This document shows positions 11,945-14,016 of a stretch of DNA of 28,411 nucleotides, one piece after another. The stretch is taken from positions 1 through 28,411 of the IMG/VR virus record IMGVR_UViG_3300030054_000081, one strand, 5' to 3'. Source of the DNA: a virus. Numbering within the stretch: position 1 is the stretch's first letter; every line of letters begins with the position of its first letter. The notes under the pieces were generated by a model, which saw only the letters and a list, made by a program, of their open reading frames with translations, was not told the origin of the DNA and ran no database searches. A program made the position numbers and the translations under genes.

Positions 11945-12010
11945 AGCAGCTCCTTATTTAGTCCATGACAAAACGCCCGCGGTGACTGGCAGGCTTCTTT
12001 GCGATGGATG

Positions 12011-12036
12011 AAAAAAAGCCCTCGGGGCGCGAGGGC
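12011..12036 (-). terminator. Intrinsic terminator after the structured RNA
   Basis: On the minus strand: GCCCTCG, short loop CGCC, CGAGGGC, then seven T. A strong GC-rich hairpin and U-run, 65-70 bases before the next gene. It ends the tRNA-like RNA upstream of it. Confidence 0.88.
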
Positions 12037-12210
12037 AAACACAGCATGGAGAGTTGTTAGAGAGTCGTGCGGCCGGATTCGAACCGGATCCGGGGTAGGG
12101 AACCCCGCGCATTGCCTTTTATGCTACCGACACAACGGCCATGCCCACTCATCTGCATCCACGGATACGCACGAACAATGAGTAAGGGAATGAGTAGGCA
12201 TGCCGTTGTG
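12037..12210 (-). ncRNA. Structured tRNA-like RNA, candidate C4/CI-type antisense immunity RNA
   Basis: No protein is coded here, yet the minus strand is full of paired segments. A 7-bp closing stem joins TCGTGCG (12174-12168) to CGCACGA (12071-12065). Inside are GCAT/ATGC (12124-12109), CGGGG-TTCCCTA-CCCCG (12107-12091) and a T-arm-like CCGG-TTCGAAT-CCGG (12087-12073). Upstream, 12209-12190 is complementary to 12152-12132 (20 of 21 positions, one bulge, one G-U). A shorter related complement, GCATGGAGAGTTGT, lies at 12044-12057 on the plus strand, just before the terminator. Antisense RNAs C4 of P1/P7 and CI of P4 are tRNA-like, RNase P processed, and pair with flanking segments to stop transcription; this layout matches. 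Class membership is my inference. Confidence 0.55.
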
Positions 12211-12264
12211 AGCTGGGATGATGCCCAGCTAGTGGTCTTAACGAAGCCCTGACCCGCAGGGCAG
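12211..12264 (-). other. Two hairpins upstream of the tRNA-like RNA
   Basis: AGCTGGG-ATGATG-CCCAGCT (12211-12230) is a perfect 7-bp hairpin. Next to it, on the minus strand, GCCCTG-CGGGT-CAGGGC (about 12246-12262) forms a 6-bp stem. Neither is followed by a U-run. They lie between the 43-residue gene and the tRNA-like RNA and may be part of the same transcript, perhaps marking a processing site. Confidence 0.6.
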
Positions 12265-12625: not shown

Positions 12626-12826
12626 TTATTTTCCTCTCATAACGTGATTAGTTGCTTTACAGGTGTGCGTTTCTTCGGCCAGATAAACTATTTCCATCGC
12701 CTTACCGGTATTTTCCGCTTTGCCAAATATTCGGTTGCAGTGATGGCACAGCACCGTCGCTTCACCGCGCCCGCTCACACCCCAAGTGATATCGTTTTGC
12801 TTGATTGGCTGTGATTCAGTAATCAT
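12626..12826 (-). CDS. Small phage protein with possible zinc knuckle (66 aa)
   Basis: First gene behind PL, with GAAGGAAAAG before its ATG. The 66 residues include CHHC (about 27-30) and a further His-x-Cys near the C terminus (THTCKATNH), a possible zinc-binding arrangement. It occupies the position of N in lambda but lacks the Arg-rich N-terminal motif of N proteins, so I do not call it an antiterminator. It ends one base before the next gene's SD region. Confidence 0.7.
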   Translation of the reverse strand: MITESQPIKQNDITWGVSGRGEATVLCHHCNRIFGKAENTGKAMEIVYLAEETHTCKATNHVMRGK

Positions 12827-13004: not shown

Positions 13005-13033
13005 AATTTATCTCAAAGATAAAGATTGGTAAA
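13005..13033 (-). promoter_or_regulatory. Leftward early promoter PL with repressor operator
   Basis: On the minus strand TTTACC (13033-13028) and TAAATT (13010-13005) are 17 bases apart. The 17-bp operator TTTATCTCAAAGATAAA (13007-13023) covers the -10 and most of the spacer, so CI binding would block polymerase. The same operator, in reverse orientation, lies in PR. It drives all leftward genes from 12826 to int. Confidence 0.72.
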
Positions 13034-13987: not shown

Positions 13988-14016
13988 TTGTCATTAATTT
14001 ATCTTTGAGATAAACT
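13988..14016 (+). promoter_or_regulatory. Rightward early promoter PR with repressor operator
   Basis: TTGTCA (13988-13993) and TAAACT (14011-14016) lie 17 bases apart. The operator TTTATCTTTGAGATAAA (13998-14014) fills the spacer and overlaps the -10; it is the exact reverse complement of the PL operator. A further TTTATCT half-site follows at 14020-14026. Start near 14023, upstream of cro. Confidence 0.8.

Follow-up and report, generated by a model that had tools for sequence, protein, structure and literature searches.

DicF, the small RNA of the dicBF operon in prophage Qin (Rfam RF00039), is processed by RNase III and RNase E, the 5' end of its 190-nt form being RNase III-dependent (PMC10448788), and the 3' end of a 72-nt form is made by RNase III as well (PMC5069750). 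In prophage Rac, an annotated terminator RNA, kilS, stands in a comparable position, and no function for KilS was found in the literature searched. Parts of the module described here have been seen singly before, as the DicF leader, as a 'dicF-like region' in phage P1 and as an 'RNaseIII' site in phage epsilon15. The C4 RNA of P1/P7 and the CI RNA of P4 (Rfam RF01695) are a second group that invites comparison, as they share with the present element a tRNA-like RNA with complementary flanks in a phage operon; an initial annotation had read the element as a CI-independent antisense RNA of this kind that closes the leftward operon. The stretch of DNA analysed (the window) is 28,411 nucleotides of the virus record IMGVR_UViG_3300030054_000081. 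Positions 1-1254 hold host proA (TIGR00407, 610 bits), followed by tRNA-Thr(TGT) at 1418-1493 and a tyrosine integrase gene at 1508-2611 reading towards the tRNA, an arrangement from which the record is taken as a prophage that occupies the proA/tRNA-Thr site, together with some host DNA.

The element lies in the left operon, behind three small ORFs and approximately 0.8 kb from the putative PL operator. The features of this region are:

13007-13023, no strand assigned: putative left operator TTTATCTCAAAGATAAA, marking the PL region; identical to the copy next to cro at 13998-14014
12626-12826, minus strand: small ORF of the PL operon, 66 aa
12442-12624, minus strand: small ORF of the PL operon, 60 aa
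12273-12404, minus strand: small ORF of the PL operon, 43 aa (phrog_32391), directly 5' of the RNA module

The sequence TTTATCTNNNAGATAAA is present in two perfect copies (13007-13023 and 13998-14014), as expected for OL and OR, and the operator motif has six near-matches including these two, a number reached by 0/100 shuffles. The identical operators at PL and PR suggest that PL is under CI control, and a lysogen would then make little of this RNA. No promoter-like site was found between the 43-aa ORF and the element. A homologue of the 43-aa ORF is present in Serratia phage BZS1, where the slot 3' of it (L022 4250-4360) is occupied by another fold closed by CTGGTGGCG...CGCCACCAG with GGTTCGATG and then by a terminator.

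The RNA module spans 12235-12011 on the minus strand and is composed of a hairpin, seqA, seqB, a tRNA-like fold and a strong terminator. Its parts, together with one segment of an earlier proposed stem, are:

12211-12230, minus strand: 5' hairpin AGCTGGG-CATCAT-CCCAGCT (sequence comparison and pairing check)
12190-12210, minus strand: seqA, the 5' arm of the A:B helix, CACAACGGCATGCCTACTCAT (fold and covariation)
12154-12189, minus strand: A-B loop of 36 nt, hypervariable across the family (family comparison)
12168-12174, minus strand: TCGTGCG, partner of 12065-12071 in the closing stem first proposed, found in type I only (pairing check and relatives)
12131-12153, minus strand: seqB, the 3' arm of the A:B helix, ending ...GGGCATGGCCGTTGTG (fold; a likely RNase III target by homology to dicF)
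12131-12136, minus strand: exchange segment GUUGUG, whose partner is either CACAAC of A or segment C (covariation and folds)
12064-12136, minus strand: tRNA-like fold, closed by B:C (ARAGORN, Rfam and folding)
12064-12072, minus strand: segment C, the 3' strand of the acceptor and rival of A for GUUGUG (covariation and folds)
12011-12063, minus strand: predicted 3' RNA of 53 nt, a single-stranded 5' part with CATGCTGTG and then the terminator (fold)
12011-12036, minus strand: intrinsic terminator GCCCTCG-CGCCC-CGAGGGC followed by TTTTTTT, with the stem at 12036-12018 (sequence)

Several parts of the initial description were borne out. The 20-nt complementarity between seqA and seqB pairs 9/9 positions in 12131-12139/12202-12210 and 12/13 in 12140-12152/12190-12202 with one bulge, and 12130-12212 folded alone gave -39.1 kcal/mol (z -4.8), which was equalled by 0/200 shuffles. 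The strong terminator, with its seven T residues, and the general A-B-C layout in a structured RNA at the terminator of the PL operon were likewise as described. The third segment, 12044-12057, stood in part: its likeness to the complement of B is confined to CCATGC and ACAAC, and it was rejected as a B complement because the pairing is not conserved among relatives. The CATGCTGTG within this segment overlaps a separate motif, (A/T)TGCTGTGT, which KilS-type RNAs carry ahead of the terminator. In the 5' hairpin, the CATCAT loop is constant and the stem is altered on both strands, to GCGGAG/CTCCGC in epsilon15 and to GCGGGG/CCCCGC in E. coli CH468. The sequence AAAGTAAAGGCGGTGGAT, 5' of this hairpin, is common to epsilon15 and E. 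coli prophages (L064, L067), where it stands at another genome position. A second hairpin, GCCTGCCAGTCACCGCGGGC followed by GTTTTGTCATGG, is located at 11975-11994 between the terminator and a 128-aa ORF and is retained in relatives that do not have the tRNA-like fold.

The tRNA-like fold with its TTCGAAT T-arm was confirmed by both tRNA-finding approaches. ARAGORN reads it as tRNA-Gly(ccc) at 12064-12134, and the Rfam tRNA model scored 31.6 bits (E 2.3e-4 in a 1.3-kb search; gathering score 29 bits), a match that was missed in the whole-window scan. The T-arm is CCGG-TTCGAAT-CCGG at 12087-12073, an anticodon-like stem-loop is present at 12107-12091, and the conserved acceptor is formed by GUUGUG(U)CGG (12136-12127) paired with CCGCACGAC (12072-12064). 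The closing stem proposed earlier, 12168-12174/12065-12071, does pair at 7/7 positions; it is confined to close type I relatives and missing in types II and III, and was rejected as the conserved closing stem. The fold could belong to an ordinary phage tRNA gene, tRNA-Gly(CCC), behind a structured 5' leader, as the ARAGORN call and the Rfam score would suggest and as do two relatives (L072 and L164) that hold a genuine tRNA-Arg(TCT) with CCA in the same slot. Identity of tRNA-Gly requires a discriminator U (U73), and a translating tRNA is expected to have a purine at position 37. When these features and an encoded CCA were sought in the fold, none was found: the acceptor is followed by TCTC, the discriminator is not U and the anticodon loop is UUCCCUA with U at 37. 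The fold is thus tRNA-like and not a convincing tRNA, and together with a T-stem of only four pairs and a score far under that of the tRNA-Thr of the same window (73.8 bits), this makes a tRNA gene very unlikely.

Relatives of the window were contigs located via neighbouring genes or the D-arm sequence. The arms of the window recur in type I relatives (L002-L005, and L047 and L052 from Hafnia psychrotolerans), the Hafnia copies showing compensating changes; in type II (L008/L024), A is ACAACAGGTAAGAGCATT and B is AATGCTCTTTCCGTTGT, and type III (L017, L029 and L039) and type IV (L040) have still other arms. Types I-IV have the same tRNA-like fold in common, that of L040 running off the contig end. 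L019/L063, with type III arms, has a different tRNA-like fold, the closing stem of which still starts in B (GTTGTGG with CCGCAAC), and in L010 and L018 the module is gone and the terminator is retained. The A-B loop of type III (approximately 100 nt; L017/L019) is a conserved piece in its own right, and an E. coli plasmid of 91 kb has it as well, close to tRNA genes (L066 3001-3114).

The layout common to the wider family is a hairpin, A, a hypervariable loop, B, a second fold and C, in which the 3' end of B, GUUGUG, pairs with A or C. The strict pattern ACAACN{2,5}AAGAGCN{38,68}GCTCTTNYNGTTGT matched at least 120 stretches of viral contigs in IMG/VR, which is a redundant collection, and 2/395 whole genomes of the order when searched as an exact pattern. 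Among the matches listed, 110 elements contain 79 different A-B loop sequences. B is usually followed by GGTG, the second fold and then C, typically CACCACAAC, and the second fold may be a tRNA (such as the Arg-TCT of L072 and L164), a tRNA-like fold or one of the AATGCGCAGGCTGATGCGC...GGAGATCAGCACC type. Annotated copies occur after Q in CUS-3 and HK633, adjoining cI in yong2 and mEp460, near a tRNA gene in phage 6947, among the tRNA genes of P1 and in lytic Klebsiella phages, and the epsilon15 record labels the A:B region as 'RNaseIII, mRNA processing'. In P1, four modules with the same A:B and B:C architecture stand in tandem over approximately 1.2 kb (L191 300-1440) around two tRNA genes and adjoin the 'dicF-like region'; they differ from the window in not being in a PL operon, in having other second folds and in having no window-type terminator RNA. 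DNA similar to this P1 region was found in 1007 plasmid records. No match to the window element was obtained in plasmids or E. coli genomes, and no Rfam family except tRNA was found over the module in the scanned loci. Matches to the betaproteobacterial toxic sRNA, anti-hemB and SorX families were below threshold, with similarity in the terminator only, and were rejected. Two viral contigs (L128 and L145) carry two copies each of the STnc100 small RNA a few hundred bases 3' of the A:B module. The window element is a member of a large and widespread, largely unnamed family of phage RNAs.

The pairing of both helices was checked by covariation. The A:B helix is represented by 74 distinct arm pairs among the matches listed, with all four Watson-Crick combinations at several positions. 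As these pairs had been selected for a helix, the test was re-anchored on the second fold alone. When the helix was not required, a score of at least 10 over 12 nt was obtained at 26/47 sites versus 1/47 with shuffled upstream sequence, and non-consensus B arms still paired at 10/13 sites. For B:C, perfect nine-base alternatives were found as GTTGTGCTG/CAGCACAAC, GTTGTGTCT/AGACACAAC and GTTGTAGTG/CACTACAAC, and in one P1 module all three strands are altered jointly (B GTTGCGGTG, A CGTAAC and C CACCGCAAC). A count of B:C pairs with G-U pairs allowed was no better than shuffles, and stricter scoring was used instead. In a swap test, elements with non-consensus B matched their own complement (score of at least 8) in 16 cases, where 200 swaps gave 3.3 on average and 8 at most; the list included reverse-strand copies, the arms being an inverted repeat, which should weaken and not inflate the test. 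At the level of sequence comparison, the A:B and B:C helices are both supported by compensatory changes. These changes also bear on the possibility that the arms are 'boundary' sequences whose main role is to provide DNA homology when phages exchange modules, with the RNA fold being secondary, as might be thought from the same arms standing around many different loops and second folds and from the CUS-3 copy being flanked by two annotated 'boundary sequences'. However, arms that differ in sequence still pair, and the joint change of A, B and C in P1 is not needed by DNA homology alone, so we give this possibility very little weight.

The full 225-nt element folds at -86.4 kcal/mol (z -3.5), and with the acceptor enforced it folds at -84.0 kcal/mol. 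The two conformations are nearly equal in energy, with a gap of 2.4 kcal/mol, and it is mainly GUUGUG that shifts between them, with no change in the upper A:B helix or in the terminator hairpin. Over 62 family members, the B:C state was favoured by a median of 3.5 kcal/mol and the upper A:B helix survived in 61/62. The element is best read as a structural RNA switch. The suggestion that it has mutually exclusive pairings was true, and the conserved alternatives are A:B versus B:C and not those involving TCGTGCG. Since neither fold alters the terminator hairpin, the terminator is not under the control of the switch in cis, and the idea that it closes the operon could not be sustained.

The kinship with C4 and P4 CI RNAs was then weighed by covariance search. 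Neither C4 nor c4-a1b1 gave an Rfam match in the window region at E<=10 with permissive filters, and the positive controls scored 68.8 bits for P1 (51 bits with c4-a1b1), 74.9 for P4 and 77.3 for Hafnia phage yong2. The element differs from these RNAs in this respect and in having no promoter of its own, and the proposed independence from CI is not supported, given the missing promoter-like site 3' of the 43-aa ORF and the identical operators that suggest a CI-controlled PL. In yong2, the C4 and isrK locus is located approximately 3 kb from an A:B helix that precedes a 51-bit tRNA, which indicates that the two are separate things. It might still be argued that a processed seqB RNA pairs in trans with A and with a downstream site, as in P4 CI or P1 C4, and terminates new transcripts at 12011, giving immunity without CI: the tRNA-like fold and antagonistic A-B-C pairings do stand within an early operon, and freed seqB could in principle pair with A on another transcript. 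Regarding target sites on both sides of the RNA, upstream A is complementary to B and the downstream 12044-12057 is so only in part and is not conserved. Duplex energies computed for each segment revealed no other site in the phage as a target that clearly surpassed shuffled queries, the best being the loop at -39.4 against -33 to -36 for shuffled queries, a weak excess. Such an antisense action is highly improbable in the face of the absent C4 match with working controls, the separate loci in yong2, the operator that PL shares with PR, the unchanged terminator and copies that lie beyond immunity loci, namely after Q, among P1 tRNA genes and in lytic Klebsiella phages. The element is probably not a CI-independent immunity determinant.

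The closest resemblance was found to the operons of DicF and KilS. The order of repressor, small ORFs, A:B helix, terminator RNA and operon genes is common to the window, Qin and Rac, and the window has both an A:B helix with conserved pairing 5' of a terminator RNA and a position after small ORFs in a left operon that appears to be repressor-controlled. In Qin (K-12), the A:B helix at L190 1674-1758 folds at -32.5 kcal/mol (z -3.0). The start of the 190-nt DicF falls at 1746, inside the B arm, when computed from the published length assuming the DicF 3' end, which is not the paper's own map, and the end of the 72-nt form falls at 1954, inside the stem that closes the next module (TTTTGTGATG.../...CATCACAAAA). 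DicF and the 3' RNA of the window are both 53 nt, and a structured stretch lies between B and the terminator RNA in either operon; this stretch is tRNA-like in the window and differs in Qin, and the processing in the window is predicted. In Rac, the A:B helix (7065-6982) stands directly 5' of kilS, and the kilS 5' end, 7003, is the start of the B arm (L201 6906-7065), which suggests that KilS, like DicF, is produced by RNase III. No second fold intervenes between B and the terminator RNA in Rac, and the tRNA-like part is therefore not needed for that scheme. An (A/T)TGCTGTGTGTAGTC-like sequence is common to the region before the terminator in KilS and several further terminator RNAs, and the same position is occupied by CATGCTGTGTTTGCCC in the window and by CATGCTGTGTGTTTGCCC (L003) and CATTGCTGTGTGTATTTGCCCC (L010) in relatives.

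These comparisons make it fairly probable, in our judgement, that the element is a processing module of a CI-controlled PL transcript, built like those that precede DicF and KilS, and its RNA is probably cut by RNase III to free a small RNA and is not an antisense switch of the P4/P1 type. The A:B helix (z -4.8), the covariation of both helices, the small energy gap between the two states, the RNase III-dependent ends of DicF within the B arm and within the closing stem of the next module, the start of kilS, the epsilon15 label and the 53-nt piece all support this reading. Against it, Rfam DicF (RF00039) gave no match in the window, the motif matrix was not significant alone in a whole-window scan even though CATGCTGTG resembles the KilS-type motif, homology of the small ORFs to ydfA/B/C was not detectable, and a second fold is absent from Rac. 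According to the processing model, transcription from PL would cross the small ORFs, and A, the loop and B would fold co-transcriptionally into a long hairpin. RNase III would cleave this hairpin and part the upstream mRNA from the 3' RNA, and the loss of A would then let GUUGUG at the end of B pair with C instead, closing the tRNA-like fold. RNase P may trim this fold, or the fold may protect the RNA. Transcription that is not protected by antitermination would end at 12011, and the final 53 nt (12063-12011), which include the CATGCTGTG motif and the terminator, would be freed as a DicF/KilS-type small RNA, perhaps via RNase E, and would act on host or phage mRNAs. Two adjacent stem-loops before a strong terminator in a PL operon, one of them the conserved CATCAT-loop hairpin with its covarying stem, are also what a cis-acting antitermination RNA would look like, in which the hairpin and the A:B helix make RNA polymerase read through the 12011 terminator in the manner of the put sites of HK022. 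This appears unlikely, as the element is placed approximately 0.8 kb from the putative PL operator and not in the leader, P1 has four copies in a row and others occur in late and lytic settings, and the cases of dicF and epsilon15 favour RNase III.

Text searches of the literature with the conserved sequences found no paper. By its title, a 1994 paper by Faubladier and Bouche concerns a widespread prophage group related to dicF, and it may already describe part of the family, the novelty of which is uncertain. A more far-reaching proposal, which we put forward only tentatively and as less likely than not to hold in full, is that the family is a widespread, unnamed class of modular phage RNAs with conserved A, B and C arms, in which the GUUGUG swap by branch migration would be gated by RNase III cleavage and the loop and a second slot for tRNAs, tRNA mimics or other folds would be freely exchanged, the window carrying a tRNA mimic so matured ahead of its terminator RNA. 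The A:B and B:C architecture ties DicF, KilS, phage tRNAs and tRNA-like folds into one scheme, corrects an otherwise plausible filing of the element as a C4-type immunity RNA, and allows a test of whether RNase III cleavage serves phages as a trigger for refolding and for the release of a small RNA.
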